From IMG/VR virus record IMGVR_UViG_3300022074_000343, positions 1-25,394 of that record: a stretch of 25,394 nt of DNA. The stretch is one strand, 5' to 3'. Within the stretch, counting starts at the first letter, position 1; each line of letters starts with the position of its first letter. The notes beneath the pieces are model-generated. The model had not been told where the DNA came from and ran no database searches. It saw only the letters and a list, made by a program, of their open reading frames with translations. The translations under genes were made by a program, and so were the position numbers. The stretch comes from a virus. Shown here in pieces: positions 8,902-25,394 of this stretch.

Positions 8902-9840
8902 ATGGACCAAGCCCGCGCTACAAACATATTAGAATCCATACTCGGTAGATTCAGAGATCAAGGCTCAGAGAAGCTGTTCTACTGTCCCGAGTGTGGTCAC
9001 CATAAGCGCAAGCTATCTATCAACCTTGATAGAGGCGCGTTCAAGTGTTGGATTTGTGATTACCGTGGTAAGTCCATTAGAAGACTTGTCAGGAAGCACG
9101 GAACTTACAACAATCTAAAAGATTGGGATGAGATTTATGGCAGACCAAATATTGCCAACTTTGATTTTTTGTTCTCAGAGAAAGAAGAAGAGGTCAAGGT
9201 CAATGTCCAAATGCCTCAATTTTTTCGTTCGCTTTTAAGAAAAGACTTGAAATTTGTAGACAAGGAGCCATTTAACTATTTGGCTAACCGTGGCTTGTCT
9301 AAACAAGACATAATGAAATGGAAGATCGGATACTGCAACTCTGGAGAATATAAGAACAGAATTGTTGTTCCATCTTTTGATGATGCTGGCGATCTTAACT
9401 ATTTTATCGCTCGTAGTTATCGTGGCGATTACTTTAAATACAAGAATCCCAAGGCCAGCAAGGATGTCATTTTTAATGAACTATTTATCGACTGGGATAA
9501 AGATCTCACAATTGTAGAAGGAGTATTTGATGCAATTAACGCAGGAAACGCTGTGCCTATCCTTGGGTCTACACTATACTCAGGGTCCAACCTATTACGA
9601 AAGATTGTACGAAATGACACCCCATGCTACATCGCCCTCGATGCTGATGCGTCTAAGAAAGAGCGCAAAATCATTACGACACTTCTTCGTTACGATGTTG
9701 AGCTTTACAAAATAGATACAACTGGCTTTGACGACATTGGCACAATGCCAAAAGATGTTTTTAAAGACAGAAAAACAAAAGCTAAGTTTATCGATCGTGA
9801 CAACTATTTATTGCTAGATTTACTAGCAGGTATCCAATAA
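8902..9840 (+). CDS. DNA primase, zinc ribbon plus TOPRIM, 312 aa
   Basis: The N-terminal zinc ribbon has C28-P-E-C31 and C49-W-I-C52. A basic linker follows (RRLVRKHG). A central region contains ANRGLSKQDIMKWKIGYC and RIVVPSFDDAGDLNYFIAR, typical of DnaG-type catalytic cores. TOPRIM residues are E206-G207 in LTIVEGVFDA and D247-A-D249 in YIALDADASKK. There is no C-terminal helicase part, and the length is close to T4 gp61, so this is probably a stand-alone primase that makes RNA primers with a separately encoded helicase. The start at 8902 has an AGGT upstream. The stop codon overlaps the next ATG. Confidence 0.85.
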   Translation: MDQARATNILESILGRFRDQGSEKLFYCPECGHHKRKLSINLDRGAFKCWICDYRGKSIRRLVRKHGTYNNLKDWDEIYGRPNIANFDFLFSEKEEEVKVNVQMPQFFRSLLRKDLKFVDKEPFNYLANRGLSKQDIMKWKIGYCNSGEYKNRIVVPSFDDAGDLNYFIARSYRGDYFKYKNPKASKDVIFNELFIDWDKDLTIVEGVFDAINAGNAVPILGSTLYSGSNLLRKIVRNDTPCYIALDADASKKERKIITTLLRYDVELYKIDTTGFDDIGTMPKDVFKDRKTKAKFIDRDNYLLLDLLAGIQ

Positions 9841-10709
9841 TGAACATTACTTTAACTTCTGAGCAATTACACCTTCTTATCAAAGAAGAGATTAAAAGAG
9901 AACTACTTGAACAACAAGCGATAGAAGAAGGTGTTAAAGATTTCTTAAAAAGAAATGCTTTTCCTGCAGCCGTAGCAGGTATAGCTATGGCAGTTTTAGG
10001 CCCTATTTACAAGATAACATCTGACCATCAGCAACAAAGAAAAGTTCAGGGTATAGAACAAGCTCTAGAAAATACGATCGAATCAAACACAAAAGTAGAA
10101 ACGCAAAAACAATTTGCCGAATATCTTAATAACAACTCTGCATTCAGATGGGGCAAGGGCGGTCAGAGAATGATGATCGATAAAACAGAGGAAGTGGCCA
10201 TTATGCCGTTAAGTTTTACGATCGCTATGATGGCTTATGAAGACAAGCAGCAAGGAAATGCCCCAAGATTTGGTATACCCGATAGATTAATGAAATTAAA
10301 TGCTGAGCCGACAGTACCCCCTGAGCAAGCAACAAGAAATTTAGATAAGTTTTTTGATGACTTTGGTTCTAACTATGTTATGGCATTTGATGTTGTTGGT
10401 GGTGTTGTAACTTCACTACCAACAGATGTCGATAGCAAAGGTAAGTATTATAATGTTGCAATGGTCGATCCTTCTGTTATAGCAGACGGCAGCTTGGCCA
10501 ACTATATTCTTCCAGAAAATGCTAGAACAGTTCAAGAATATTATAACTGGGTATACTTCAGCGAGTACCTTAGCATAGAAGATGTGCAAACAATCACAGG
10601 CAAGATTAGTGCTGATGATCCGGCTGCTAGAGAAAAAGTTCAGCAACTATTCATTGATGCAAACCCAAACTTAGTAAAACTCCAAAAACAAGTTCAAAGC
10701 TTCAAATAA
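9840..10709 (+). CDS. Leader-bearing protein with one hydrophobic segment, 289 aa
   Basis: The body is not recognised. The N-terminus, MNITLTSEQLHLLIKEEIKREL, is a divergent form of the class A leader and carries the same LIKEE core. An (I/L)xE-type site lies at I28-E29-E30 before G31. A hydrophobic stretch at 41-57 (FPAAVAGIAMAVLGPIY) may span or insert in a membrane or pack as a helix. The rest is soluble, with GKGGQRMMIDKTEEVAIMPLSFTI near residues 105-128. If the leader is a prohead-targeting tag, this would be an internal head protein of medium size. The gene is TAATG-coupled to the primase and followed by a promoter. Confidence 0.75.
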   Translation: MNITLTSEQLHLLIKEEIKRELLEQQAIEEGVKDFLKRNAFPAAVAGIAMAVLGPIYKITSDHQQQRKVQGIEQALENTIESNTKVETQKQFAEYLNNNSAFRWGKGGQRMMIDKTEEVAIMPLSFTIAMMAYEDKQQGNAPRFGIPDRLMKLNAEPTVPPEQATRNLDKFFDDFGSNYVMAFDVVGGVVTSLPTDVDSKGKYYNVAMVDPSVIADGSLANYILPENARTVQEYYNWVYFSEYLSIEDVQTITGKISADDPAAREKVQQLFIDANPNLVKLQKQVQSFK

Positions 10710-10715
10710 GATCCC

Positions 10716-10743
10716 TCGACAGAAGATCAAAACAGGCTATAAT
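10716..10743 (+). promoter_or_regulatory. Sigma70-type promoter, TCGACA - 16 bp - TATAAT
   Basis: TCGACA (10716-10721) matches five of six bases of the -35 consensus and TATAAT (10738-10743) is a perfect -10 box; the spacer is 16 bp. It lies in one of the few real gaps in the window, directly before the 38-aa peptide gene and the Mre11-Rad50 fusion. This would let host RNA polymerase transcribe the recombination gene separately from the late structural operon. I see no MotA-box-like element. Confidence 0.65.
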
Positions 10744-10761
10744 AGAGTCATGGAGAGAACA

Positions 10762-10878
10762 ATGAACTTCGCTTGGCTTGTATGTGATGCCTTCTTTAAG
10801 GCACTTATGATTATATTTTGGTACGCTATTGGTACCGCCTTGATTACCCCCGTGTACACTTACATGGGTATTCTATGA
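10762..10878 (+). CDS. Small hydrophobic membrane peptide, 38 aa
   Basis: The ATG at 10762 follows GGAGAG at 10752-10757. The 38-residue product (MNFAWLVCDAFFKALMIIFW and so on) is almost wholly hydrophobic, with only two acidic or basic residues (D9, K13), and would form one membrane helix. Its TGA overlaps the ATG of the fusion nuclease (ATGA). An in-frame ATG at 10750 is possible but would overlap its own ribosome binding site. It may be a real micro-protein, or a leader peptide that couples translation into the downstream gene. Coding status is not certain because of its length. Confidence 0.5.
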   Translation: MNFAWLVCDAFFKALMIIFWYAIGTALITPVYTYMGIL

Positions 10879-13217
10879 ATATTGCGCATTTAGCAGATAC
10901 ACATATCAAAAACCTGCGCTACCATAGTGATTATAGAAAAGTATTCAATTGTCTCTTTCGGATGTTGAAGGATGACAATCCTGACATTATTGTGCATTGT
11001 GGTGATATCGCCCACACAAAGACACAAATATCTCCAGAGTTTGTTGAGATGACAAGTTGGTTCTTGTCGTGTCTTTCTGACATTGCACCACTGTATATTA
11101 TTCTTGGTAACCATGATGGCAATCTAAAGAACAAAAATAGGCAAGATGCAATCACACCCATTGTCGATGCTCTTAGCAATGATAACATTCACCTACTGAA
11201 GAATTCTGGTGAAGTTATTGTTGATGATAAGGTGACACTGAATGTGTTGTCCATCTTCGATAGAGATAACTGGACTAAGCCTACAAACCTTGACAAAATC
11301 AATATTGCACTCTATCATGGCACTATCGCAGGTGCCAAGACAGACCTTGGTTATGTTCTGAACGAAGGCCAGGATGAAATTGATATTTTTAAAGATCACG
11401 ACTTTGCCATGCTTGGAGATATCCATAAGCAGCAGTCGTTAGATCCCGATGAGCGTGTTTGGTATTGTGGCTCCACAATTCAACAAAACCACGGAGAGGG
11501 TAAATACAAAGGGTATCTTTATTGGGAGATCAAAGGTAAAGACGATTGGAGTGTCTATCCTGTAGATATCTACAACCACCATACCTTTGAAACCATCCAT
11601 ATTGGCCCTGATGGCGAGATTATTGAAAGAGTTAACATTGAAGATAAGCGAGTCAGAGTTGTTGATACTCACGGTCACCCAAAGCATGTAATCAAAGAGA
11701 TACTGTCCAATCTTAGACAAAACAAGCCAAAATCGCTTAAATTCATACCTAAAAAGGCACAATTTTCCCTCAAGCAGGTAGAGAATAAGGCCCTAAATGT
11801 GCGCGATGCAGGGATCCAGAGGACTCTTTTGGCCTCGTTCTTGGCTTCTAAAGGGCTTTCTCAGTCACAATTTAGCAAGATTTATGAACTAAATGATCAA
11901 ATTAACACCGATCTTGACGAGAATCACCTTGCTAGAAACACAACTTGGGCGATTAAGAGCTTCAAATGGGCTGGTTTGTTCAACTACCAGGAAGAGTCCA
12001 GCTTAAATTTTGCTGATTATCGTGGCCTTGTTGGCATATTTGGTAAGAATTTTACAGGCAAGTCGTCTGTTATTGACTCCATCCTATTCACTATCTTTGG
12101 CACAACGTCAAAGAAAGAGAAAAAGCTTGTCAATGTTATTAACAATCACTGCAAGAAAGGCTTTGGCGAAGTTGTTATCCAGTCTGGCGACAGGTTGTAC
12201 ACAATTAGACGAGAGCTTAAAAAGGTCAAGAGGAAAGGTATTGATGCTGCTACATCTACTGTAAACTTTACTTACACCAAAAACGGCAGAGAGACATCCT
12301 TAAACGAGAACACAAGAGTTAGGACTGACAAGGCCATCCAATCTTACTTTGGAACCTATCAGGACTTTGCTATGTCATCACTTGCGTCACAGACCGACAG
12401 CTTAAACTTTATCTCTGAGGGTTCTACAAAGCGTAAGGAGATTGTCGCCAAGTTCCTAGACCTTGAGCACTTTGCCAAGAAGACCAAGCTTGCCAAAGAA
12501 GAAGCTAGCCAGACCAAGGCACTCGTCAGAAAGCTATCTACTCGCGACCATTCCGAAGCAAAGCGTAAACTTGCAGAAGAGATCAATGCTATCAAGGGCA
12601 AGCTAAAGCATCTTGAGATTGGTGTTAAATACTCAATGACGAAGAAACAGATTGAGTATTACAAGACTCTTGGCTCTGCGCAGCAACGTGTTGAGATTCT
12701 AAAAGCAGAGCACCAAGAACTCAAAGAGCTTGAGAGAAAAGCATATCTGTATGATTGTTACATCGAAGCCGTAAACACAAATGGCATCCCTTACCAGATT
12801 ATCCAAGAAAAGATTCCTGTCATCAACCAAGAGATAGCATCTTTTCTTGTTGGTGTTGTTGATTTTGATATCTACTTTGAGTGCAACGATAAGAATCTAG
12901 ATATCTTTATCAAGCACCCAGAACAAAACCCAAGGCCAATTGAAATGGCTTCGGGAGCAGAGAAAACTATGGCCTCTATGGCGATCAGGTTGGCTTTGCT
13001 GTCTGTCTCTTCGCTTCCAAAGGTAGATCTTTTTATTCTTGACGAACCAGGAACTGCTTTGGATGAGGACAATTTATCTGGTTTTATTGATATATTGGAA
13101 CTAATTAAGATGAATTTCTCTACAACTCTTTTGATCTCGCACTTGCAAAGCTTGAAAGATTCTGTAGATAAAGAAATAGCAATCCAGAACACCAACAAGG
13201 GAGCAAGAGTATTATGA
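10875..13217 (+). CDS. Single-chain Mre11-Rad50 (gp47-gp46 / SbcD-SbcC) fusion nuclease-ATPase, 780 aa
   Basis: I took the ATG at 10875, giving MNIAHLADTH, the normal start of an Mre11 fold; upstream in-frame starts add only the translated peptide region. Residues 1-230 are a calcineurin-like phosphoesterase with D8, H10, D44, N79-H80-D81, H148 and D182-x-H184. About 255-350 looks like the Rad50-binding helical part. From 360 comes the Rad50 ATPase: Walker A G390-KNFTGK-S397, signature SGAEKT at 693-698, Walker B LFILDE at 719-724, and H756 of the switch. The coiled coil between the ATPase halves is only about 95 residues (530-625) and has no CxxC zinc hook. In T4, gp46 and gp47 are separate and process DNA ends for recombination. 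Confidence 0.9.
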   Translation: MNIAHLADTHIKNLRYHSDYRKVFNCLFRMLKDDNPDIIVHCGDIAHTKTQISPEFVEMTSWFLSCLSDIAPLYIILGNHDGNLKNKNRQDAITPIVDALSNDNIHLLKNSGEVIVDDKVTLNVLSIFDRDNWTKPTNLDKINIALYHGTIAGAKTDLGYVLNEGQDEIDIFKDHDFAMLGDIHKQQSLDPDERVWYCGSTIQQNHGEGKYKGYLYWEIKGKDDWSVYPVDIYNHHTFETIHIGPDGEIIERVNIEDKRVRVVDTHGHPKHVIKEILSNLRQNKPKSLKFIPKKAQFSLKQVENKALNVRDAGIQRTLLASFLASKGLSQSQFSKIYELNDQINTDLDENHLARNTTWAIKSFKWAGLFNYQEESSLNFADYRGLVGIFGKNFTGKSSVIDSILFTIFGTTSKKEKKLVNVINNHCKKGFGEVVIQSGDRLYTIRRELKKVKRKGIDAATSTVNFTYTKNGRETSLNENTRVRTDKAIQSYFGTYQDFAMSSLASQTDSLNFISEGSTKRKEIVAKFLDLEHFAKKTKLAKEEASQTKALVRKLSTRDHSEAKRKLAEEINAIKGKLKHLEIGVKYSMTKKQIEYYKTLGSAQQRVEILKAEHQELKELERKAYLYDCYIEAVNTNGIPYQIIQEKIPVINQEIASFLVGVVDFDIYFECNDKNLDIFIKHPEQNPRPIEMASGAEKTMASMAIRLALLSVSSLPKVDLFILDEPGTALDEDNLSGFIDILELIKMNFSTTLLISHLQSLKDSVDKEIAIQNTNKGARVL

Positions 13218-13465
13218 AAATCACAAAAGAAACATTAAAGAAACTAATCAAGGAAGAACTTGAAGCAATGCAAGCTGAAGCATCTCTCGGTGAAGAGGAA
13301 ACTCTCTCAGAAGAAGATGCAGGCATGGTTGAAATCGATGGCAGTCAAGCAGAAAAAATCAAGAAGCTTGCCTTCCAACTATACAATGCCACCATGAATT
13401 TGCCAACCTCACCTGAGAATCAAGAATACCGTCGCAGCGTTGCTGATTATATGAAAAACCGTTAA
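13214..13465 (+). CDS. Class A leader protein, 83 aa
   Basis: The N-terminus MKITKETLKKLIKEEL fits the class A leader. After it comes an acidic stretch (LGEEETLSEEDAGMVEIDG) and a helical tail with the sequence AEKIKKLAFQLYNATM. Possible protease sites are MQAE before A23 and the LSE in the acidic stretch. The body is not recognised. The ATG overlaps the fusion nuclease stop (ATGA). It is the first of three leader genes in a row, and the shared leaders with unrelated bodies argue for a targeting tag rather than for common function. Confidence 0.75.
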   Translation: MKITKETLKKLIKEELEAMQAEASLGEEETLSEEDAGMVEIDGSQAEKIKKLAFQLYNATMNLPTSPENQEYRRSVADYMKNR

Positions 13466-13480
13466 AGGGGCTAAAGTAAT

Positions 13481-13726
13481 ATGAAAATTACCAAAGAAAG
13501 AATAAAGAGACTAATCAAGGAAGAGGTGAATAAGGAACTAGCCGCTGACTTTGTGGAAAACGATATTGTTGACTATCTGATTAAAATCGGATCTATCAAG
13601 GCTCCAAACGACGAGGTGGGCTACGACTCAGATATGGACAGAGTCTATCGTGATGCAGCAACATTTTTGGAAAAATTTGCAATTCCCTATTTGAGAGAGA
13701 TGGCAGATATTATAGAGAGAGCCTGA
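13481..13726 (+). CDS. Class A leader protein, 81 aa
   Basis: It starts MKITKERIKRLIKEEV after an AAGGGG ribosome binding site. This leader has no later LxE before Ala or Gly; the only such site is the IKE within the leader core (residues 12-14). The body has an acidic N-terminal part (ADFVENDIVDYLIKIGS) and a C-terminal helix (DAATFLEKFAIPYLREMADIIERA). I do not recognise it. It lies 15 bp after one leader gene and 2 bp before another, consistent with one transcript and stepwise duplication or acquisition of tagged genes. Confidence 0.75.
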   Translation: MKITKERIKRLIKEEVNKELAADFVENDIVDYLIKIGSIKAPNDEVGYDSDMDRVYRDAATFLEKFAIPYLREMADIIERA

Positions 13727-13728
13727 AT

Positions 13729-13977
13729 ATGAAAATAACTAAAGCAAGACTAAAGCAGATCATCAAGGAAGAGCTTCTTAAAGAGGCCGACTTTTCTGCG
13801 CTTCAAACCAAGCTCCTTAAGCACATCAAGGATAATCCAGGTACAACACTAAAAGGTGCTGTTCCCGAGCTTGATGGAGAAGAGCTTACTGGTGCTATCC
13901 AAAACCTGTTAAGAGATAAAAAGATAACAGATAAAGGAACGAAAGGCGCAAAATATTACCCAACTAAGGAAGATTAA
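13729..13977 (+). CDS. Class A leader protein with winged-helix-like body, 82 aa
   Basis: Leader MKITKARLKQIIKEEL, then L17-K18-E19 before A20, a textbook (L/I)xE-type site. Residues about 27-80 have the pattern of a winged helix-turn-helix: a helix (LQTKLLKHIKDNPGTTL), an acidic turn, a recognition-type helix (EELTGAIQNLLRDKKI), and a wing with a Lys/Gly-rich turn (TDKGTKGAKYYP). Cleavage would leave an almost bare DNA-binding domain of about 63 residues. Family assignment is by pattern, not search. If packaged, it could be a DNA-binding protein carried in the head. Its stop codon overlaps the ATG of the tubulin-like gene. Confidence 0.75.
   Translation: MKITKARLKQIIKEELLKEADFSALQTKLLKHIKDNPGTTLKGAVPELDGEELTGAIQNLLRDKKITDKGTKGAKYYPTKED
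13753..13776 (+). repeat. Leader-coding 24-nt identity, copy 1
   Basis: This segment of the winged-helix leader gene is identical over 24 bases to 24533-24556 in another leader gene. It encodes the KQIIKEEL part. The identity includes every third codon position, so it is not only protein-level conservation. The two genes lie about 10.8 kb apart and their bodies are unrelated. Confidence 0.75.
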
Positions 13978-15107
13978 TGTCAGAGTTTGATTTTATACCA
14001 CCGTCAATGCCAACGCCAGCATTTGAGCATAAAGACGAAAATAGATTTGATGAAGAATTAGAGGCCGAAGACTTCGGCCTTATGTCTGATTTTGGAATTA
14101 TGAATGAAGAAGTTAATGAAGATCTATTACCAGACAACAGTGCTCCATCATCAATTAACATTGGTTTCATGGGTGTTGGTGGCGCTGGAAATAAAATGGC
14201 TGCTGCGTTTATCGCTCAAGGTTTTACAAAAACCCTTCTCGTAAACACAACCGGCAAAGACATTCCAGACGAAGTTGAGGAACAGCATGTTGCTCTTATC
14301 CCGAATGCTGATGGCATTGGTAAGGACACAAGGCTTGGTAAGTCTGTTCTTGAAGGAAACTCTGCTGTTGTTGAGGATGCCTTGAGAACTAAGCTTGGTA
14401 AAGTTGACTGGCTATTTGTGATGGCAGGTGGAGGGGGCGGTACAGGCTCCTCAGTGGCCGCACTACACGAAGCTACCCAAAGATACATGAAGTCTGTACA
14501 AGCTCAAGGAGAGGTCGTCTACATCGTTTCCTGGCCCACTTCTCAAGAACTCTTAAACCCAACCATTGCTAAGAATGCACTTTCACTTCTTAACGACGTA
14601 TCTGAGTATCCTCATATTGTAATTGACAACGAAAGACAGTTGAGATTGTTGAGATCACAAGTCGGTATGCTCGGCCTTTATCCAAAGGCAAATACAGGAC
14701 TTGCCAAACTCCTAGGCCAAGTTCTCAAGCTATCCACAGAAGCATCTCCAATCCAGTCTTATGACAGCAAGGATTTAGAAACTTGCATTGGACAATCTGG
14801 TCGCATGTTCCTTGGTTCTACAATCATCAGAGACCCTGCAACACCCAAGCTTGGCTCTATGATTCTACAGAACTGTCTTAACGTATCTGCCTGTCCTCCA
14901 CCAAAGGGCAAGCCAAAGACTGGTACACTTTTACTTGTTGTGTCAGAAGATATGGTTAATGACCCAAGACTATCAAAACATCTAGAAGCTGCGGTTTCTT
15001 ATGTCGGTGGTAGGTGTGAAACTCTTTTCTCTGGTATTTATATCAGAAAGAACGTTCCTGGTCTTATTGCCATACTTACTATGGGTGGATTACCACAAGG
15101 AAGATAA
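13977..15107 (+). CDS. FtsZ/tubulin-family GTPase, 376 aa
   Basis: After an acidic, probably disordered N-terminal extension of about 58 residues comes the nucleotide-binding start INIGFMGVGGAGNKMA (60-75). The tubulin signature is GGGGGTGSS at 151-159. The T7-loop region, SYDSKD at 261-266, keeps the two Asp of the FtsZ NxDxxD motif at D263 and D266, with Ser for Asn, so GTP hydrolysis on polymerisation is plausible. Phage relatives such as PhuZ form spindles that position DNA or the phage nucleus; FtsZ-like forms are also known. There is no FtsZ-type C-terminal tail, and it ends TMGGLPQGR. A cytoskeletal role is inferred. Confidence 0.85.
   Translation: MSEFDFIPPSMPTPAFEHKDENRFDEELEAEDFGLMSDFGIMNEEVNEDLLPDNSAPSSINIGFMGVGGAGNKMAAAFIAQGFTKTLLVNTTGKDIPDEVEEQHVALIPNADGIGKDTRLGKSVLEGNSAVVEDALRTKLGKVDWLFVMAGGGGGTGSSVAALHEATQRYMKSVQAQGEVVYIVSWPTSQELLNPTIAKNALSLLNDVSEYPHIVIDNERQLRLLRSQVGMLGLYPKANTGLAKLLGQVLKLSTEASPIQSYDSKDLETCIGQSGRMFLGSTIIRDPATPKLGSMILQNCLNVSACPPPKGKPKTGTLLLVVSEDMVNDPRLSKHLEAAVSYVGGRCETLFSGIYIRKNVPGLIAILTMGGLPQGR
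15081..15107 (+). repeat. 27-bp direct repeat, copy 1 (end of tubulin-like gene)
   Basis: These bases encode the last residues MGGLPQGR and the stop codon of the GTPase gene and contain its neighbour's ribosome binding site (AAGGAAG). They match 15730-15756 at 26 of 27 positions. The two copies flank the J-domain gene. Confidence 0.85.
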
Positions 15108-15727
15108 TGAAGCTAATATTAGAAAATTGGAATGGCTTTTTGAATGAAAATCAAGAGAATTTGTATTCTATATTTGAATTAACGCCAACCGACAACATAG
15201 ATATGATTAAAAAAGCCTACATAGCAAAGGCAAAAAATGCTGGCTCTAATGAAGATGTAAGACAAAAGCTTGCGAACGCGTATGAAACACTTTTAGATCC
15301 AGAAGAAAAACAAGAATACGATAAAAAACTATACGCCGATGCTGTGTCTTTTAAGAAGCAACGCCCTGATGCTAGATTTAATGCAAACAACGGATTGCCT
15401 TTAGACGATCAAACAATGAAAAAATTAAAAGATATGGCAGGGACTAAAATGTCTTCTACAATGAAGCAGAGGTCCTCTGATGTAAAAGCAAGTTTTGACC
15501 CTGATACTGGTATGCCTTTAAGTGCCGAGGCTATGTCAAAATTGATTAAAAACGATCCCGAAAGAATAAAAACAGACATAATGCCGCTTGCTCAAAAAGT
15601 AATCAATAACATCAAGAATGACTATGGAAATCCAGTAGCTATGATGTTAGTTTCTGCTTTTCAAGTGGCAGACAATAAAGGTGAAATTCTTTTTGCACTT
15701 ATGCAGGCATCACAAAAAAATAAATAA
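15107..15727 (+). CDS. Class B leader protein with degenerate J domain, 206 aa
   Basis: The N-terminus MKLILENWNGFLNE is the class B leader, with L12-N13-E14 as a possible protease site. Residues 18-75 match the J-domain pattern (LYSIFELTPTDNIDMIKKAYIA, then LANAYETLLDPEEKQEYDK), but the HPD loop that stimulates Hsp70 is absent (AKAKNAGSNED is there instead). So it probably keeps a J fold without DnaK activation. Two internal repeats follow, near 91-99 (F-N-A-N-N-G-L-P-L) and 130-138 (F-D-P-D-T-G-M-P-L), each followed by an MxKL element. The gene is flanked by a 27-bp duplication, suggesting insertion. It appears richer in A than its upstream neighbour. Confidence 0.75.
   Translation: MKLILENWNGFLNENQENLYSIFELTPTDNIDMIKKAYIAKAKNAGSNEDVRQKLANAYETLLDPEEKQEYDKKLYADAVSFKKQRPDARFNANNGLPLDDQTMKKLKDMAGTKMSSTMKQRSSDVKASFDPDTGMPLSAEAMSKLIKNDPERIKTDIMPLAQKVINNIKNDYGNPVAMMLVSAFQVADNKGEILFALMQASQKNK
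15719..15726 (+). promoter_or_regulatory. T4-late-like promoter element AATAAATA
   Basis: AATAAATA at the very end of the J-domain gene differs by one base from the T4 late octamer TATAAATA. A start a few bases downstream would lie in the 27-bp repeat and give a short leader to the ATG at 15758. The bases overlap the codons AAT AAA TAA, so chance is a real alternative. Weaker than the 4591 candidate because the downstream CTATT extension is missing. Confidence 0.35.
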
Positions 15728-15729
15728 AT

Positions 15730-15756
15730 ATGAGTGGATTACCACAAGGAAGATAA
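15730..15756 (+). repeat. 27-bp direct repeat, copy 2 (relic of tubulin-like gene end)
   Basis: This copy could be read as the mini-frame MSGLPQGR plus stop, one residue different from the end of the tubulin-like protein. It supplies the AAGGAAG ribosome binding site of the leader gene at 15758. Its only mismatch with copy 1 is the fourth base (A for G). Confidence 0.85.
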
Positions 15757-15757
15757 A

Positions 15758-16027
15758 ATGAAACTTACAAAACAAAGAATTAAAGAAATTATCAAGGAAG
15801 AGCTTGAAGGTATGAATGAAGAGCCGATGGAAGAGCAAACTCTTCAAGAAGGTTTTGACATGAGCAACCTCCCACTGGTGATGGATGCAATTGCCAAAAT
15901 GGCAACCGATCCTTATATGGGTCCTTTGATTGCTGCTGTTATAGCCGGTATGCCAATCATGGCTGCTATAGAGAAACATATGCTAAGCAAGCTTCCACAA
16001 GATAAGGACAGCGGAGGTGGCATGTGA
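15758..16027 (+). CDS. Class A leader protein with hydrophobic segment, 89 aa
   Basis: The ATG at 15758 gives MKLTKQRIKEIIKEEL. The GTG in frame at 15734 would read through the duplicated repeat and is rejected. An acidic, Met/Glu-rich linker (17-31) ends with L29-Q30-E31 before G32, a good (L/I)xE-type site. After it, residues 53-71 are hydrophobic (YMGPLIAAVIAGMPIMAAI) and could span a membrane, and the end is Gly-rich. If cleaved, the product is a small, mostly hydrophobic protein. It is TGATG-coupled to the holin-like gene, so a link to lysis or membrane penetration is conceivable but unproven. Confidence 0.75.
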   Translation: MKLTKQRIKEIIKEELEGMNEEPMEEQTLQEGFDMSNLPLVMDAIAKMATDPYMGPLIAAVIAGMPIMAAIEKHMLSKLPQDKDSGGGM

Positions 16028-18457: not shown

Positions 18458-18463
18458 AAATGA

Positions 18464-20044
18464 ATGTCCAGATTAACCAAGAAAGAAATACTGAAGGAAA
18501 TCGTAAAGTGCGGTAAAGATCCAGTTTACTTCTTAAAGAATTATGCAAGGATCTCACACCCACTTAAAGGACAGATATTATTTAACCTCTTCGATTATCA
18601 GGAAGATCTTCTACAAGATTTCAATGACTATCGTTTTAATGTAATCAATAAAGGCCGGCAGTTAGGTATTTCTACCTTGACTGCCGGTTATATTGTTTGG
18701 ATGATGCTTTTCCACAAGAACAAGACGGTTCTTGTTATGGCAACTAAGTTTGAGACAGCAGGTAACTTGGTCCGTAAGGTCAAGAGTATTATGAAAAACT
18801 TGCCTGACTGGATTACTATATCTGACATTACAGCAGATAACAGAACTTCTTTTGAACTTTCTAACGGATCGTCAATTAAGGCTGCTTCTACTTCTGGCGA
18901 TGCTGGTCGCTCTGAAGCGTTGTCCTTGCTTGTCCTTGATGAGGCCGCACACATTGATGGTCTTGACCGCCTTTGGACTGGTCTGTATCCAACACTATCC
19001 ACAGGTGGTCGTTGTATAGCAATCTCTACTCCTAATGGTGTTGGCAACTGGTTTCATAAGACATGCGTTGGGGCTGAGAATAATGATAATGATTTTCACC
19101 CCACAACGCTTATGTGGTGGGTTCATCCTGAGAGAGACAGAGAATGGTTTGACAAAGAAACCAGAAACATGTCAAAGCGACAGATCGCACAGGAGCTAGA
19201 GTGCAACTTCAATACCTCTGGTGAGACCGTTATATCGTCAGAAGATATGGAATGGCTTGGCTCACTTATTGAAGAGCCAAAGCATAGAACAGGCTTTGAC
19301 AGAAACTTCTGGTTATGGAAAGAAAAAGAACCAAGCTGTAACTATCTTCTCTGTGCTGATGTAGCCCGAGGCGATGCCGTTGATTATTCTACTTTTCAGC
19401 TACTTGAGCTAGAAACAATGGACTTTATAGGCGAATACAAAGGCAAACCTACTCCTGATTTATATGCCAACATGCTTAATCAGGTTGGTAGAGAGTTTAA
19501 CAATGCCATGCTTGTGGTCGAAAACAACTCGATTGGCTACACGGTTCTTGACAAGCTGCAAGAAGCAGGCTATCCTAATATTTATTACTCAACAAAATCT
19601 ACACATGAATATGTTGAACAATATCTGGCCGAGCAAAGATCATCTGTGACCGCTGGATTTACAAACTCTATGAAGACAAGACCGCTGATTATAGCTAAGC
19701 TTGAAGAGTTCATCAGAAATAAAATGATCAAGGTTCATTCTTCTAGACTAATTAATGAGTTGAGAACTTTTGTTTGGCAGGGCGGTAAGCCCAGAGCTAT
19801 GCGAGGATATAATGATGATTTAGTTATGGCTCTTGCTATTGCATGTTGGGTCAGAGACACAGCAATACAAGCAAGCGGCAGAGACCTTAACTATCAAAAA
19901 GCATTTGTTGATTCGATCATAGTTAGTAGTAGAAAGTTTGAGACAAGAATAAAAGGACAAGAAGGCTACAAGAAAGATAATATTCTTGATAAAATGTCTG
20001 AAGCTAAGTCCTTATACAGTCAATACAAATGGATAATTAAATAA
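18464..20044 (+). CDS. Terminase large subunit (TerL), 526 aa
   Basis: This is the DNA-packaging motor of tailed phages: an ATPase plus an RNase-H-like nuclease. ATPase: a P-loop-like GRQLGIST at 64-71 and Walker B LLVLDEAAHID at 155-165 with D159-E160; the coupling segment is near AISTPNGVG (187-195). Nuclease: D299 in CADVARGDAVD, E353 in LVVENNSIGY, and D451-D452 in YNDDLVMALA. The length is close to the usual T4 gp17 family range. The P-loop has Ile where T4-type has Lys. The ATG at 18464 is preceded by an out-of-frame ATG at 18460. The stop codon overlaps the portal start (TAATG), matching standard terminase-portal order. Confidence 0.93.
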   Translation: MSRLTKKEILKEIVKCGKDPVYFLKNYARISHPLKGQILFNLFDYQEDLLQDFNDYRFNVINKGRQLGISTLTAGYIVWMMLFHKNKTVLVMATKFETAGNLVRKVKSIMKNLPDWITISDITADNRTSFELSNGSSIKAASTSGDAGRSEALSLLVLDEAAHIDGLDRLWTGLYPTLSTGGRCIAISTPNGVGNWFHKTCVGAENNDNDFHPTTLMWWVHPERDREWFDKETRNMSKRQIAQELECNFNTSGETVISSEDMEWLGSLIEEPKHRTGFDRNFWLWKEKEPSCNYLLCADVARGDAVDYSTFQLLELETMDFIGEYKGKPTPDLYANMLNQVGREFNNAMLVVENNSIGYTVLDKLQEAGYPNIYYSTKSTHEYVEQYLAEQRSSVTAGFTNSMKTRPLIIAKLEEFIRNKMIKVHSSRLINELRTFVWQGGKPRAMRGYNDDLVMALAIACWVRDTAIQASGRDLNYQKAFVDSIIVSSRKFETRIKGQEGYKKDNILDKMSEAKSLYSQYKWIIK

Positions 20045-22032
20045 TGGCACCAAATAATAGAAAACCACCTGGGCGCAATCCGGCTAATACACAGTCTGAA
20101 TTGTTTAAGTCCCTAACAAGGTTGTTCTCTGGACCTATCATTTCTTACAGAACACAAGCTGGTAGAAAGATACGCAGACAGCACCTTGACAAGTTCTCTT
20201 CTCGTTTCCGCTCTGCCTCTGGTCAGCAGTTTAAGAAGACAACATACAACCCGCTTGACACTATAGCTGTCAATGCTATCAACAACCAAAGACGCTCTGA
20301 GCGTTATGTTGATTTTGATCAGATGGAGTATATGCCAGAGATTGCGTCTGCTCTCGACATCTATGCTGATGAGATGACAACGTATTCTGATCTTAGGCCA
20401 ATGCTAAGCATTAATTGTCCTAACGAAGAGATTAAGGCAATGCTTAGCATTCTTTATCATAACGTTATGAATATTGAGCACAACCTGTTTGGCTGGTGTA
20501 GAACACTTGCCAAGTACGGTGACTTTATGCTTTATCTCGATATTGATGAGAATGTAGGCATTCAAAGCACTATCTCTCTACCGATTCAAGAAGTAGAGAG
20601 ATTGGAGGGCCTTGATGCAACAAACCCCAACTATATTCAATATCAGTGGAACTCTGCAGGAATGACGCTTGAAAACTGGCAGCTTGCTCACTTCCGTATA
20701 CTTGGCCATGACAAGTATGCCCCATATGGCTCTTCTGTTCTTGAGCCTGTTCGTAGGATTTGGCGTCAGCTAACCCTTATGGAAGATGCAATGATGGCTT
20801 ACCGCATTGTTCGATCTTCGGAACGCAGAGTGTTTAAGATTGATGTTGGCGCTATTCCTCCTAACGAGGTCGAACAGTATATGGAAAAGACTGTTACTGC
20901 CCTTAAGCGACATTCCGTAATTGACCCAGATACAGGTCGTGTTGATTTGCGATATAATCCACTATCAGTTGAAGAGGATTACTTTATCCCAACCCGTGCA
21001 GGGTCAGCAACAGAAATTTCATCGCTTGCTGGTGCTCAGAACATCACCGCAATTGATGACATTAAGTATCTCAGAGACAAAATGTTCTCTGGCCTTAAGG
21101 TTCCACAGTCTTATCTTACAATGGGTGAGGGAGCCACAGAAGACAAAACAACGCTTGCACAAAAGGATATTCGTTTTGCCCGCACCATTCAGAGACTACA
21201 AAGAGTTGTCATATCAGAACTTGAAAAGATTGGTATTATACATCTTCACACACTTGGTTTTAGTGGCGACGACCTTCTTTCTTTTAAACTTTCTCTTAAC
21301 AACCCATCTAAGATAGCGGAACTTCAAGAGCTTGAACACTGGAAGCAAAAGTTTGATGTTGCTGGATCTGCCACGGAAGGCTACTTCTCTCGTCGTTGGG
21401 TTGCACAAAATCTATTTGGTATGTCTCACGAAGAGTTTATCAGAAACCAAAGAGAAATGTACTACGACCGCAAGCATGATGCTGCACTTCAGGGTGTTAT
21501 CGAATCTGCTGCTGCCGGTGAAACCGGCATGGGCGGTGGAGGCGGTGGAGATCTAGGTGGCCTTGATCTTGGCGGCGGTGAAGAGCTTGGTGCAGTTGGT
21601 GCCGCTCCTGATATTGGTGGTGATGCTCTTGATGCCGGTGGTGATGCTGGTGCTGATGCTGGTGGCGAAAGCCCACTACTAGCAGCACCTCCCGGCTCTC
21701 GTAATGCTCCAAGACTTACCCCTGGCGCTAACGGCAAAGTCTATTATCCTAAAAAGCGTGACAGTAGACCAGCCGGTGCCAGAAGCAGAGCATACTCGTC
21801 TGTTGGAAAAACAGAAATTGGTACAGTGCGAACCACTATTCCTGGTTATGCTGACGGACTAAGAACTTTAGCAAATGGTGTTTATACAGAAGATGTTTCT
21901 AGTTATAGTATAAACGAATCAAAAGAAGAGCGGGCCTTGTTTGAGAGAAGCGAGACCGTTGTTAGTTTGATTGAGAGTTTAGATGAAGCTAAAGAAAAGG
22001 AACTACTTACTGAGTCGGAGAAAGTATCATGA
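20044..22032 (+). CDS. Portal protein with long Gly/Ala/Asp-rich C-terminal extension, 662 aa
   Basis: The portal vertex protein forms the dodecameric DNA gate to which the terminase docks. Core residues 65-480 contain YVDFDQMEYMPEIASALDIYADE and VRRIWRQLTLMEDAMMAYRI, and ending near LAQKDIRFARTIQRLQRVV, all typical of T4 gp20-like portals. The core alone would be of normal gp20 size. Beyond it is a low-complexity region at about 490-550 of Gly, Ala and Asp repeats, then a basic stretch (YYPKKRDSRPAGARSRAY) and a helical, acidic end (VVSLIESLDEAKEKELL). The extension could extend into the head or bind scaffold; this is inference. It is ATGA-coupled to the next gene. Confidence 0.9.
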   Translation: MAPNNRKPPGRNPANTQSELFKSLTRLFSGPIISYRTQAGRKIRRQHLDKFSSRFRSASGQQFKKTTYNPLDTIAVNAINNQRRSERYVDFDQMEYMPEIASALDIYADEMTTYSDLRPMLSINCPNEEIKAMLSILYHNVMNIEHNLFGWCRTLAKYGDFMLYLDIDENVGIQSTISLPIQEVERLEGLDATNPNYIQYQWNSAGMTLENWQLAHFRILGHDKYAPYGSSVLEPVRRIWRQLTLMEDAMMAYRIVRSSERRVFKIDVGAIPPNEVEQYMEKTVTALKRHSVIDPDTGRVDLRYNPLSVEEDYFIPTRAGSATEISSLAGAQNITAIDDIKYLRDKMFSGLKVPQSYLTMGEGATEDKTTLAQKDIRFARTIQRLQRVVISELEKIGIIHLHTLGFSGDDLLSFKLSLNNPSKIAELQELEHWKQKFDVAGSATEGYFSRRWVAQNLFGMSHEEFIRNQREMYYDRKHDAALQGVIESAAAGETGMGGGGGGDLGGLDLGGGEELGAVGAAPDIGGDALDAGGDAGADAGGESPLLAAPPGSRNAPRLTPGANGKVYYPKKRDSRPAGARSRAYSSVGKTEIGTVRTTIPGYADGLRTLANGVYTEDVSSYSINESKEERALFERSETVVSLIESLDEAKEKELLTESEKVS

Positions 22033-22841
22033 AGCATAACAAGAAAAGAAATACAGCATTTATGTATGAAGCCCTTATACGGGTAATGACTGACTCTGTT
22101 GTCTGTGGCGACGTAGAGCGCAGGAAGAAGGTAGTTAAGATTGTCAAAGAGCACTTTGGTTCTAACTCTTTATTAAAGAAAGATTTAGATTGCTATCGGT
22201 CTATCTATGAAAATCACAATCTTGACACAACTAGAATTCTTACAGAAGCTAAGATATCTAAAAGATTGATTGACCCCGATGGTCTTTTTAAGGCCCAGAC
22301 CAACGCAATCCACACAATTAACAAAACTATTGGACCACAGACATTTAATGTTTTTGTTCCAAACTATAAGACTCTTGCCACTATATCTCAGATATTCTCT
22401 CCTGACACTTCTCCAAAAGATAAAGTCCTCCTAGAAAATCAACTAATTCAGGCCCTCTCCAGTTCAACTGTCGATAGTCCAGAGATGATGCCTATCGACA
22501 ATTTAGTTTATAAATCTTTTGTGAAGAAATTCAATTCTGAATATGGTGGCAAACTTCTTGAAGAGCAAAAGACTTTGCTCACAAATTACATTATATCTTT
22601 TGTAGATAACGCCGTTGAGCTTAAGCTATACCTTAACGAAGAAGTAACCAGACTCAAGACAGCACTTAACGAAGCAAAAGAAAAGCCAGAGATCAAGAAC
22701 GACTCCATGCTTCTCGCTAAGACCGATAAGGTCATTAACAAGCTTGAGAATCTAAAAGAAACAAACATCAACGAGTCTGTCCTTAGAACTGTGCTTTCCA
22801 CTCAGAAGCTTGTAAAGGAACTTAGCGACGATGCCAATTAA
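22029..22841 (+). CDS. Conserved hypothetical protein downstream of portal, 270 aa, helical
   Basis: The N-terminus, MKHNKKRNTAFMYEALIRVM, is one I recall from other marine phage genomes next to portal genes; no function is known to me. The protein is largely helical, charged and soluble, with NVFVPNYKTLATISQIFS near 115-132 and an acidic, lysine-rich helical C-terminus (LNEEVTRLKTALNEAKEKPE, then KTDKVINKLENLKET). In T4 the genes after portal are gp67 and gp68, prohead core components, so a scaffold or core role is possible by position. It is ATGA-coupled to the portal and overlaps the next gene by 11 bp. Confidence 0.75.
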   Translation: MKHNKKRNTAFMYEALIRVMTDSVVCGDVERRKKVVKIVKEHFGSNSLLKKDLDCYRSIYENHNLDTTRILTEAKISKRLIDPDGLFKAQTNAIHTINKTIGPQTFNVFVPNYKTLATISQIFSPDTSPKDKVLLENQLIQALSSSTVDSPEMMPIDNLVYKSFVKKFNSEYGGKLLEEQKTLLTNYIISFVDNAVELKLYLNEEVTRLKTALNEAKEKPEIKNDSMLLAKTDKVINKLENLKETNINESVLRTVLSTQKLVKELSDDAN

Positions 22842-23370
22842 AGTAAAGATTGGAGACGCCAATCAATCCAAGGAAGTCACTCTTGAGCTAAACATTAGAA
22901 AGTCGTTAAACGGTGATCTAATGATCTTTGATCATGGCGATGTAGATATCATCCTATCTCAGAAGAACAACAAGGTAATTGTATTTCCAAAAGACACAAT
23001 GTCGGATATTGCTTATGGGGCACAGAATAGACTTTTTGCACATCTCAAGCGTAGAGGCATCATTGTTCCCGAGTCTATCCAGGCCGGCTCTTTCTATGGC
23101 TCTATGGAAGCAACAATGCAAGAAGCATCCAGGCCAGAGATTGTGCCAGCCAAGTATGCGATCATAAATATCAGTAAGTTTATTGACGAAGAGCGTCCAT
23201 ACTTTGAGCGCGTCGAGGCCGTCACTACGCTTGACAAGGGTAGAATCACAGAGCCTAGTAAGGAAGACTCTACTGAACTTGGTGAAGTACCACACGAAGC
23301 AGAGAAGGGCAACATCAGAAATTCATTCCTTAGAGATCCTTATTACTATTCATATATGTACACAATGTAG
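22831..23370 (+). CDS. Conserved hypothetical protein, 179 aa, beta-rich
   Basis: Residues 1-50 look like a beta domain (MPIKVKIGDANQSKEVTLEL, then GDLMIFDHGDVDIILSQKNNKVIVFPKD). A central segment follows (AYGAQNRLFAHLKRRGIIVPESIQAGSFYGSMEATMQ). The C-terminal third is acidic and ends in an aromatic tip (RDPYYYSYMYTM). I do not recognise the family. AAAGGAA about 10 bp upstream of the ATG serves as ribosome binding site. Its location between the portal-linked hypothetical and a leader gene suggests head assembly, maybe a prohead or core-associated protein. Confidence 0.75.
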   Translation: MPIKVKIGDANQSKEVTLELNIRKSLNGDLMIFDHGDVDIILSQKNNKVIVFPKDTMSDIAYGAQNRLFAHLKRRGIIVPESIQAGSFYGSMEATMQEASRPEIVPAKYAIINISKFIDEERPYFERVEAVTTLDKGRITEPSKEDSTELGEVPHEAEKGNIRNSFLRDPYYYSYMYTM

Positions 23371-23379
23371 GTGATCAAT

Positions 23380-24147
23380 ATGTCTAATGAGATGAAAGTC
23401 ATAATGGAGCGTTGGGACAAGTTTCTCATAAAAGAACAAGAGCCAGACGCAAGCACAGAACCACAATCTGTAGGACAATTAATAAAATCGATAGATGACT
23501 TAATCCTGATCAAAGGAGATAAAACTAAAAGAGTTATATCGAATGTCATTGAAGCACTTAAAGTATTAATTGATTCAGCGCAGGATCTTGATTATCTATC
23601 TGAAGATATACAAAAAATCATTGAATGGTTTGAAGAGGCGCTTGAAGGTCAGTGGGCCGAAGCGATTTCAGCAATACCTGTAAAATCTGTTATCAACATA
23701 ATAGCGCGAGATCCGGTAAAAAGCTTTTTAATACAAAAAATTGGAGAACAGGCTCTTACAGCTCTTGTAAAAGATATATTGCCCGCAGGAAATACAGTTA
23801 TTTCGGCTGCCAAGTGGGCTGGTAGGATTTTTTCTTTTGCAAAAAATGCCAAACAGGCATTTGACACAGGTAACGCTGAGCCTGATGAACTATTCAGCTT
23901 AATAGTTAAGGACATAATGGCGGCCCCAGACAACAAAGACACTACCAAGGGTTTTTTATCAAAAATGAATGTAGATGATGAATGGGCTAAAATGTTAGAT
24001 GATAAAGTAGAAATCAAATTTATTCAAAAAATGTTAGAAACCTTAAGGTCACTACCGCCAGACACTCCTATTGACTCTATAGATGTTAATCAACAATTAG
24101 TTAATTTTTTACAATCCAATTTTGATGGAAGGACAGTAACAAGATAA
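23380..24147 (+). CDS. Class B leader protein, 255 aa
   Basis: I prefer the ATG at 23380, six bases after AGGTG; GTG 23371 would put that site inside the gene, and ATG 23392 begins the leader motif itself. MKVIMERWDKFLIKE fits class B (MKxIxExWxxFLxE), with I17-K18-E19 before Q20 as a possible cleavage site. The body has an acidic helix (EDIQKIIEWFEEALEGQWAE), a central hydrophobic part (ALVKDILPAGNTVISAAKWAGRIF), and a C-terminal domain with FLSKMNVDDEWAKMLDDKVE and FLQSNFDGRTV. I recall this C-terminal pattern in other leader-bearing marine phage proteins. No function is known. Confidence 0.75.
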   Translation: MSNEMKVIMERWDKFLIKEQEPDASTEPQSVGQLIKSIDDLILIKGDKTKRVISNVIEALKVLIDSAQDLDYLSEDIQKIIEWFEEALEGQWAEAISAIPVKSVINIIARDPVKSFLIQKIGEQALTALVKDILPAGNTVISAAKWAGRIFSFAKNAKQAFDTGNAEPDELFSLIVKDIMAAPDNKDTTKGFLSKMNVDDEWAKMLDDKVEIKFIQKMLETLRSLPPDTPIDSIDVNQQLVNFLQSNFDGRTVTR

Positions 24148-24509
24148 TGGAACTATTATTATTTATACTCGCCGCTTACGGCCTAACACAGATTCTTGTC
24201 TATAGCGACATGCCAATACTTAAATGGCTAAGACCAGCTAAAGACTCATTAAGAGGATACGGAAAAGTATTTCATTGTCCAATGTGCATGGGTTTCCATG
24301 TAGGTTGGTTTTTAATGCTACTTTCTCCGTTCACAGATCTATTTAGTTTTGACGTTGGGTTATCTAACTTTATACTTTTAGGGTCTTTGTCCTCGGCCAC
24401 ATCATATGTCCTTAATATGGTGTTCTCAGATGAAGGCATAAAGATAGCAAGTCAGAACACCTATAAGCCAGTATCAATAGAAGACGATTACTTCATAAAG
24501 GAAGAATAA
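24147..24509 (+). CDS. Membrane protein with CPMC motif, DUF1360-like, 120 aa
   Basis: A hydrophobic N-terminal segment (about 2-18) is followed by a charged loop, then FHCPMCMGFHVGWF with C44 and C47, a second hydrophobic segment (about 50-66) and a third (73-90). The C-terminal tail is acidic. The CPMCxGFxxG pattern with membrane helices is like DUF1360-type proteins, small membrane proteins found in bacteria and phages with no defined role. That assignment is by motif memory. It sits between two leader genes with TAATG overlaps at both ends, so it is co-translated with putative cargo proteins. Confidence 0.65.
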   Translation: MELLLFILAAYGLTQILVYSDMPILKWLRPAKDSLRGYGKVFHCPMCMGFHVGWFLMLLSPFTDLFSFDVGLSNFILLGSLSSATSYVLNMVFSDEGIKIASQNTYKPVSIEDDYFIKEE

Positions 24510-24835
24510 TGAAAATTACAAAACAAAGACTTAAGCAGATCATCAAGGAAGAGCTTGATGCAACTTTAAATGAGGCTTCCAGAAAGGCGGGCAAAACAAC
24601 TGCCTACCAAATTAAAAAACTTGATCCAAATTTTAATTTCCAAACTCAGCCATCTGATGAATTTGCTGGATTAATGGCACTTCAAGACATCGATAATTCA
24701 AACACTGCAACTGTGTATGATGCGAATGACAATATAGTTGGCACGCTTGATTTAACCTCATCTCCAAAATGGCTAGATTCGGTTATCAAATACAGTCCAG
24801 ATCTGGTCCGTCGAGCTATGGGACAATATGGGTGA
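24509..24835 (+). CDS. Class A leader protein, 108 aa
   Basis: MKITKQRLKQIIKEELDATL is followed by N21-E22 before A23, so L20-N21-E22 is a clear (L/I)xE-type site. The body is not recognised: a basic Tyr/Lys segment (RKAGKTTAYQIKKLDPNFNF), then strand-like parts (TATVYDANDNIVGTLDL) and a helical end (WLDSVIKYSPDLVRRAMGQYG). A TAATG overlap joins it to the CPMC membrane protein, and AAGGAAGA before it serves as ribosome binding site. Its leader shares 24 identical bases with the winged-helix leader gene, though the bodies differ. Confidence 0.75.
   Translation: MKITKQRLKQIIKEELDATLNEASRKAGKTTAYQIKKLDPNFNFQTQPSDEFAGLMALQDIDNSNTATVYDANDNIVGTLDLTSSPKWLDSVIKYSPDLVRRAMGQYG
24533..24556 (+). repeat. 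Leader-coding 24-nt identity, copy 2
   Basis: Identical over 24 bases to 13753-13776, with divergence starting immediately after the shared leader codons. It ends at codon L16, exactly where the protein-level leader similarity ends. Confidence 0.75.
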
Positions 24836-24945
24836 AATAATGAACAACTTTCTACTATCTAAATGGGGACTACAACCAGTCCGTCGTTGTTGTAAAGGCT
24901 CTTAGCTCGCGCGGGTAGCGCCCGCACAATTAAAAGGATAACAAA
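24836..24945 (+). other. Structured intergenic region with a GC-rich hairpin and a tRNA D-arm-like segment
   Basis: This 110-bp gap is the largest non-coding stretch in the window. It can form GGACT/AGTCC (24867-24871 with 24878-24882) or, alternatively, ACAAC/GTTGT (24872-24876 with 24886-24890). At 24911-24925 GCGGG-TAGCG-CCCGC is a strong hairpin. The bases from 24903, TAGCTC then GCGCGGGTAGCGC, resemble the D arm of a tRNA, but no anticodon or T arm follows. A 21-codon ATG frame at 24840-24905 is possible but has no other support. The AAAAGGATAAC just upstream of 24946 is the next gene's ribosome binding site. Without a T-tract after the hairpin, a classical terminator is unlikely. Confidence 0.4.
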
Positions 24946-25305
24946 ATGAAAATTACAAAAACTAGATTAAAGCAAATCATTCAAGAAGAGATGACAAAGG
25001 TTCTAAGTGAACAAATGTTAAATATGGATATGGTTTCCGATGCTTTTACAATGGCTGTGTCTGAAAGACCACCTAAGATGGGATTACCTGTTGAGTTCAC
25101 AATTGATGCAGTAAATAAGAAACTAGCCGACAAACTTGGCAAAGCTCCCGATGAAAATCAAGTATCAAGATTTTTAAGAAAGATATTGATGGATCCAATG
25201 GAATTAGAACGCTTAGGGATTGAAAAAATTGAATTAGGGTCAAAGATAACGCGTACCAGGGATGGTATGGTTTTTAGAAATAAACAAATGGCTGCCAAGG
25301 TATAA
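24946..25305 (+). CDS. Class A leader protein, 119 aa
   Basis: MKITKTRLKQIIQEEMTKVL is the leader, with Gln for Lys at position 13. L20-S21-E22 before Q23 is the possible cleavage site, the same residues as in the gene at 17377. The remaining part, about 97 residues, has a helical region (MVSDAFTMAVSERPPKMGLP) and a soluble end with KLADKLGKAPDENQVSRFLRK and RTRDGMVFRNKQ. I do not recognise it. It follows a structured intergenic region with an AAAAGGATAAC leader and immediately precedes the partial gene at the window edge. Confidence 0.75.
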   Translation: MKITKTRLKQIIQEEMTKVLSEQMLNMDMVSDAFTMAVSERPPKMGLPVEFTIDAVNKKLADKLGKAPDENQVSRFLRKILMDPMELERLGIEKIELGSKITRTRDGMVFRNKQMAAKV

Positions 25306-25306
25306 A

Positions 25307-25394
25307 ATGAAATTACTACGAGAATACTACGAACTATGTGAAGGCGGTGTCTGTAAAGATCTGCTAACAGAAGAAGAGAAGCGCTTTGTTGCAG
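25307..25394 (+). CDS. N-terminus of a possible prohead protease (gp21-like), cut by the window end
   Basis: Twenty-nine codons are visible: MKLLREYYELCEGGVCKDLL and then TEEEKRFVA. T4-like prohead proteases often begin with a short MKLxRE-type sequence, and in T4 the protease gene (gp21) follows the portal region before scaffold and major capsid, so both start and position agree. The catalytic residues would lie beyond the window, so this stays unproven. The ATG follows the previous stop by one base. If correct, the enzyme expected to cut the leaders lies beside the tagged genes. Confidence 0.45.
   Translation, partial: MKLLREYYELCEGGVCKDLLTEEEKRFVA

Follow-up and report, generated by a model that had tools for sequence, protein, structure and literature searches.

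The internal proteins of bacteriophage T4 and its T-even relatives (IPI, IPII and IPIII), as well as Alt, are said to carry a capsid targeting sequence (CTS), according to Mullaney and Black and to Repoila in 1994. This short leader has been the subject of reviews (PMC9026906, PMC3012670, PMC12373910); in T4 IPIII, residues 4 and 7 serve targeting and residues 8 and 10 serve processing (PMC9026906). Those T4 internal proteins that have been tested inhibit restriction enzymes of type IV and have only the leader in common (PMC12373910). In phage P1, the 30 N-terminal residues of DarB suffice to carry a reporter into the capsid, the natural cargo being an injected anti-restriction system (PMC9024508), while in the head propeptides of SPN3US and phiKZ the prohead protease cuts after Glu, and gp53 and gp54 combine 15 identical N-terminal residues with diverged bodies (PMC5694885). 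We analysed a window of 25,394 bases, which is the entire IMG/VR contig IMGVR_UViG_3300022074_000343 and represents a fragment of a T4-like myovirus. Many of its genes, and those of its relatives, begin with one of a few short common leaders (tags A, B and C). It is probable that these are capsid-targeting leaders of a modular system of the T4 type (IP/Alt CTS), in which one leader may take the place of another.

The preliminary description of this DNA had named six genes that start with nearly the same 16 residues. All six (13214, 13481, 13729, 15758, 24509 and 24946) were recovered at those positions, each with the canonical form of tag A, MKITKxRLKxIIKEEL. Four features had been missed: a second leader, tag B (MKLLLENWRxFLxE), carried by the genes at 15107 and 23392; the start of the protease gene at 25307; a 28-nucleotide (nt) repeat; and a weaker second LxE at residues 20-22. 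A third leader, tag C (MARRKNxKRIDPRYFLxE), is present on about 15 bodies in the relatives. Tags A and B are both short, basic and, by sequence, amphipathic. The similarity stops sharply, and at the residue that had been reported, since in 168 representatives of distinct bodies the column information of tag A falls from 2.2 bits at residue 16 to 0.57 bits at residue 17; for tag B it is at most 0.8 bits past residue 14. The genes at 9840 and 17377, presented earlier as diverged versions, are genuine cases of tag A because their homologues bear the canonical tag: the body of the former shares 34% identity with a protein that begins MNIKKEKLKRIIKEEV, and that of the latter shares 42% with one that begins MKITKTRLKEVILEVI.

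The tags are confined almost entirely to protein N termini. In eight near-complete relatives, a position-specific scoring matrix for tag A (score 18, Met column left out) gave 46 N-terminal and three internal matches and none in shuffled proteins, which excludes a chance origin of this tag; the corresponding numbers for tag B were 35, one and none. Each of the three internal tag A matches is preceded by Met, and these are probably mis-called gene starts (the genes were called with a simple in-house caller, which may have misplaced some of the starts). When N-terminal 6-mers were counted without bias, pieces of the two tags ranked with the commonest starts in the majority of the eight genomes. 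The number of genes per genome is 2-9 for tag A and 1-7 for tag B. At the DNA level, the tag A pattern was found in 114 stretches of viral contigs versus one in 257 gigabases of prokaryote genomes, and the tag B pattern in at least 120 stretches. Searches of cultured phages with a single tag (tblastn) were uninformative, because 20-23 residues cannot reach significance, and were replaced by profile searches of chosen records. A PDB search with the tag returned chance matches only, and no mention of the tag A or tag B strings in a phage context was found in the open literature searched.

Some other N-terminal features were recorded in the relatives. A variant of tag B with the fixed extension M-S-x-W-S-S-F/Y occurs on head-cluster genes downstream of the protease (L141:11473, L046:5070, L050:9724 and L139:15961). 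MKVGDLV is a further repeated start (4-6 proteins per genome in G002, G008, G016 and G020), which may represent a small paralogous domain rather than a leader. Tag-like stretches are also located inside two longer proteins (L243:6356-8320, from G003, and L093:1860-2369), possibly polyproteins with internal protease sites; in G003 a tag B protein is fused to a tag A unit, and the same unit is a separate gene in L038.

The relation to the T4 signal becomes apparent from the spacing of residues. In T4 ipII, ipIII and Alt, whose leaders were read here, hydrophobic residues occupy positions 4, 7 and 8 and Glu occupies position 10, and the major capsid protein of T4 is cut at FGSFLTE/A (slash, site of the cut). 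Tags A and B show the pattern hydrophobic-x-x-hydrophobic-hydrophobic-x-Glu at residues 8, 11, 12 and 14, which is the spacing of positions 4, 7, 8 and 10 of T4 IPIII. Counted with only the other positions fixed, residues 8, 11 and 12 of tag A are hydrophobic in 100, 100 and 100% and residue 14 is Glu in 99% of 253 distinct bodies, and residues 11 and 12 of tag B are hydrophobic in 95 and 95% and residue 14 is Glu in 83% of 296 bodies, the tag B pattern itself also fixing some positions. A possible second site, [LI]xE within residues 19-26, is present in 76 of the 168 tag A proteins, while at residues 39-46 the figure is 11 of 168; the LxE near residues 20-22 was not part of the selection pattern. 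Moreover, LL[RK]E is conserved ahead of the mature region in the major capsid propeptides of eight relatives. The hydrophobic-hydrophobic-x-Glu motif is more frequent at N termini than internally even when the A and B proteins are subtracted (only slightly so in some genomes), and the same holds for Flavobacterium phage vB_FspM_immuto (NC_055915; hereafter immuto).

Judged by profile comparison, the likeness of the tags to the T4 CTS lies in spacing and residue class only. The profiles of tags A and B matched nothing in T4, KVP40, Aeh1, S-PM2, Syn9, P-SSM2, HTVC008M or phiM12, and membership in the T4 CTS by descent is therefore not supported. By function, the system most likely works like the T4 signal, and the parallel with T4 suggested in the preliminary description is corroborated by nearly every feature that can be tested in sequence (position, unrelated bodies, spacing, a gp21-type site, protease and placement between gp20 and gp21).

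The check for co-occurrence with a prohead protease, proposed with that parallel, revealed no abundance of the tag in its absence. Peptidase_S77 (PF03420) was detected in 17 of 22 long tag-bearing records, and the other five lack the region concerned (two end shortly past the portal gene, while three contain neither the portal nor the major capsid protein); a gp21-type protease was thus present in all 17 records spanning the head region. In the window the protease gene begins directly behind the last tagged gene (24946). The closest relative covering this region, L120 (terminase 97% identical), has a complete protease gene in the same position, and this homologue (6970-7569) is 79% identical to the protease of G002. 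In the interval from portal to protease, which holds gp67 and gp68 in T4, tagged genes are over-represented (6/31 versus 60/1776; Fisher p = 7e-4, with non-independent orthologues among the genes counted).

As had been claimed, the bodies behind the tags are unrelated. The IMG/VR loci collected yielded 308 distinct proteins with tag A and 227 with tag B, which fell into 273 body clusters, including 205 singletons. Clustering was by single linkage, and the seven mixed A/B clusters were rechecked by alignment so that clear swaps alone were used. The DnaJ-like body carries tag B in the window (15107) and tag A in L020 (6893-7471); in a protein of 74-76 amino acids, about 70% identical between phages, the A and B leaders are exchanged at E14; and another body, 80% identical, bears either A or B. 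A nucleotidyltransferase-like enzyme body starts right behind the leader in three phages, and its leaderless homologue in immuto starts M-GGNVF. The boundary between leader and body in such comparisons coincides with the residue at which a gp21-type protease would cut. Alignment thus presents leader and body as independent modules, given that one body may have different leaders, and one slot with the same leaders may have different bodies. A phage would therefore keep a changeable cargo set, with about 5-14 tagged genes per genome. The modular cargo system envisaged in the preliminary description stands as regards modularity, but its single tag has to be replaced by a set of interchangeable leaders.

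Two hotspots of such cassettes were identified. One lies just ahead of the protease gene and begins past a membrane-protein gene at 24147, which is 97% identical in L120; the window and L120 each contain two tag A genes there. The DNA of the tag aligns almost perfectly in the first pair, whereas the bodies of these genes are unrelated. The second hotspot is located 3' of the FtsZ-like gene, where tag starts within 1.3 kilobases were found in 23 of 25 distinct flanks in the relatives versus 110 of 2000 random stretches. In the window, two copies of a 28-nt repeat, derived from the 3' end of the FtsZ-like gene, enclose the tag B gene at 15107. Copy 2 of this repeat equals the end of the FtsZ-like gene of L122, where a tag A gene comes directly after, and the arrangement around 15107 looks like an insertion scar. 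Within a genome, tag copies share 65% of codons versus 43% expected (39% versus 37% in an untagged control), while the DNA upstream of them is no more similar than between random genes, which indicates that the tags are partly copied as DNA.

Recognisable bodies were found mainly behind tag B, with matches to Nudix, AAA/zeta-like kinase, S-adenosylmethionine (SAM) lyase (two proteins), GNAT acetyltransferase, DnaJ, exonuclease, protein-kinase and M23 peptidase families. The tag A bodies are small, nearly all without recognisable function. Searches of Pfam and PHROGs with the window's own tagged proteins revealed nothing but DnaJ, and the AlphaFold model of the 23392 family was poor (mean predicted local distance difference test score of 53). 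For a SAM lyase delivered together with the DNA, a function in anti-restriction would be plausible.

Since the tags are laid out like the T4 capsid-targeting signal, the head of each phage is probably loaded with a variable set of helper proteins, and the tag would mark those that are taken. During prohead assembly, the amphipathic leader would bind to the scaffold core, with hydrophobic residues 8 and 11 acting as residues 4 and 7 of T4 IPIII. The gp21-type protease would then cut after Glu14 of the hydrophobic-hydrophobic-x-Glu motif, and often again after the LxE near residue 22, freeing the cargo, which may stay beside the DNA once the head is mature and enter the host alongside it.

Several points weigh against this interpretation. 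Binding to the core, packaging into virions, cleavage and ejection are steps that we infer from what the sequences display, i.e. the tags, their position, modularity, swapping and spacing, and the genomic setting. The conservation values given above for tag A are partly circular, because about half of the sample had been retrieved by means of a DNA pattern in which the tag is fixed. In T4 the cut is usually followed by Ala; behind the predicted site, most tag A proteins have Glu instead, and those with tag B have various residues. The near-invariant K2, K5, E15 and L16 of tag A are without T4 counterpart. The T4 late-promoter octamer was not found upstream of the tagged genes, but these genomes hardly contain the motif at all, and the test therefore failed. 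Finally, the bodies, though small, have an acidic character (median charge of -4 behind tag A and -7.5 behind tag B), in contrast to the T4 internal proteins, which are small and basic, are injected with the DNA and often act against restriction. Some of the bodies behind tag B, e.g. the M23 peptidase, seem ill-suited to a phage head at first sight.

The tagged proteins might alternatively be parts of the prohead core, comparable to gp67, gp68 and gp22 of T4, which are recruited by the leader and then mostly degraded or left in the head instead of being delivered to the host. Such a role would suit the several tagged genes in the gp20-gp21 slot, the 23392 family, which is conserved there, and a conserved gene beside the protease with a tag A-like start, KSQLKKLIKPVVKECIQEVL. 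However, most bodies are rare or unique (the 205 singleton clusters) and are exchanged between close relatives, a variation which essential core parts would not show, and some of those behind tag B are enzymes (Nudix, AAA/zeta-like kinase, SAM lyase, GNAT, DnaJ and exonuclease). We therefore regard this alternative as unlikely.

It is still more improbable that the leader is an amphipathic helix directed to the membrane, or to another cellular site or partner, and has no role in the capsid. Membrane association is among the known fates of short amphipathic N-terminal helices, and the short, basic and amphipathic character of both tags would agree with it. The leaders A, B, C and those of immuto, however, differ in sequence and yet share a spacing that ends with hydrophobic-hydrophobic-x-Glu; they replace one another, the tagged genes cluster beside the protease, and an invariant Glu14 would be needless in a membrane helix. 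As for a common 5' end preserved for its DNA or mRNA, either as a recombination handle or as a translation-initiation module, and not for the peptide, the excess of shared codons within genomes and the repeat around 15107 point in this direction, but about one-third of the identical residues are encoded by different codons, the upstream DNA is no more alike than that of random genes, and the residue pattern persists across leaders unrelated in DNA. The exchange of tag DNA is also compatible with selection on the peptide, and there is very little to recommend this possibility.

Features of the 25,394-base window with tagged genes, leaders and head genes
Feature	Position	Strand	Remarks
Diverged tag A protein, MNITLTSEQLHLLIKEEI, 289 amino acids	9840..10709	+	34% identity over 169 amino acids to the L112 protein starting MNIKKEKLKRIIKEEV
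Tag A protein, 83 amino acids, MKITKETLKKLIKEELEAMQAEA	13214..13465	+	
Tag A protein, 81 amino acids, MKITKERIKRLIKEEV	13481..13726	+	
Tag A protein, 82 amino acids, MKITKARLKQIIKEELLKEA	13729..13977	+	
FtsZ/PhuZ-like protein	13977..15107	+	PHROG tubulin PhuZ, E=2e-5; 3' end adjoins cassette hotspot
28-nt direct repeat, copy 1 (3' end of FtsZ-like gene)	15080..15107	+	
Tag B protein, MKLILENWNGFLNE, DnaJ-like body, 206 amino acids	15107..15727	+	DnaJ, E=5e-6
28-nt repeat, copy 2, directly 5' of next tag A gene	15729..15756	+	27/28 identical; insertion-scar-like
Tag A protein, 89 amino acids, MKLTKQRIKEIIKEEL	15758..16027	+	Body family of 19 members
Degenerate tag A protein, MSEINTKDLRRLIRKVLLSEQ, 186 amino acids	17377..17937	+	L190 homologue starts MKITKTRLKEVILEVI
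Terminase large subunit, T4 gp17 type	18464..20044	+	
Portal protein, T4 gp20 type	20044..22032	+	
Tag B protein, MKVIMERWDKFLIKE, portal-protease interval, family of 17 members	23392..24147	+	Alternative ATG upstream at 23380 possible
Tag A protein, 108 amino acids, MKITKQRLKQIIKEELDATLNEA	24509..24835	+	L120: tag retained, body replaced, neighbours conserved
Tag A protein, 119 amino acids, MKITKTRLKQIIQEEM	24946..25305	+	Directly upstream of protease
Prohead protease 5' end (Peptidase_S77 / T4 gp21 type), MKLLREYYELCEGGVCKDLLTEEEKRFVA	25307..25394	+	First 29 codons; contig end cuts gene

The window also encodes primase, RuvC and SbcCD-like genes. By terminase, its nearest cultured relatives are immuto (46% identity) and Microcystis phage Mel-JY01 (44%). 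The FtsZ/tubulin-like gene (13977-15107), with its weak match to PhuZ, has homologues of 57-96% identity in the relatives, and a tblastn search of cultured phages with it gave no match. The gap between the two tag A genes that precede the protease (24840-24905) contains a micro-open reading frame of 21 codons, MNNFLLSKWGLQPVRRCCKGS, followed by a GC-rich hairpin. Across 32 distinct copies its segment KWGLQPVRxCCKGS hardly varies; most of these copies are located just 5' of a tagged gene or the protease, and an Rfam search with this region yielded no match. Downstream of the protease there is a small basic gene (L120:10416-10664 and G002:132531-132779) that may be a homologue of the ribosomal protein gene for bS21 (RpsU); the annotation of Mel-JY01 has RpsU at the same place.

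A more general picture can also be proposed, for which we consider the chances to be even. A widespread clade of marine T4-like phages would possess an open protein-delivery system in which a single prohead core and protease recognise at least three interchangeable leaders and hundreds of effector families are thereby loaded (among them kinases, Nudix hydrolases, SAM lyase, a DnaJ-like protein and nucleotidyltransferases), new cargo being captured by recombination at the leader DNA in dedicated hotspots by the FtsZ-like and protease genes. Phage proteins co-injected with DNA are hard to find because they have no common sequence; those of the T-even phages were found via their leader, and the ones tested block restriction enzymes. 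A leader that can be read in raw metagenomes flags about 270 candidate cargo families, almost without assigned function, in this clade. It thereby yields a shortlist of likely virion-delivered effectors and natural leaders for programmable packaging, and offers a clear test of cargo exchange between phages by leader swapping.

The preliminary description had supposed that the tag system might be undescribed. The principle of leader-directed cargo is not new, since it is already established for the T-even internal proteins (PMC12373910, PMC3012670), but no description of the set of interchangeable leaders, of the cargo's breadth or of the hotspots was found in the open literature searched. In immuto, the nearest cultured relative, which has the same head cluster, short leaders that end with hydrophobic-hydrophobic-x-Glu are present: three genes carry MENFDLKKFLVEN, of which there is also one variant, and further leaders read MKKSQLRQIIKEAL, which is tag A-like, or MKKSELVKLIKEEL. 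They are distinct from A and B, and some homologous bodies are leaderless; no description of the immuto virion was found in the open literature. The propeptides of SPN3US and phiKZ differ from the tags in being long, in their A-x-E motif and in the small number of proteins concerned, and swapping of leader types has not been reported for them. The Dar proteins of P1 have no common leader consensus, depend on a different protease and apparently lack a separate scaffold. The internal proteins and Alt of T4 and the T-even phages come closest. The tag-bearing phages are large, marine, uncultured and distant from T4, and they have several interchangeable leader types without sequence homology to the T4 leader, as well as far more body families, acidic and in some cases recognisable as enzymes. 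What both have in common is a short N-terminal leader on unrelated bodies, with equal spacing of hydrophobic residues and Glu, a site of the gp21 type at the end of the leader, hypervariable cargo and a gp21-type protease.

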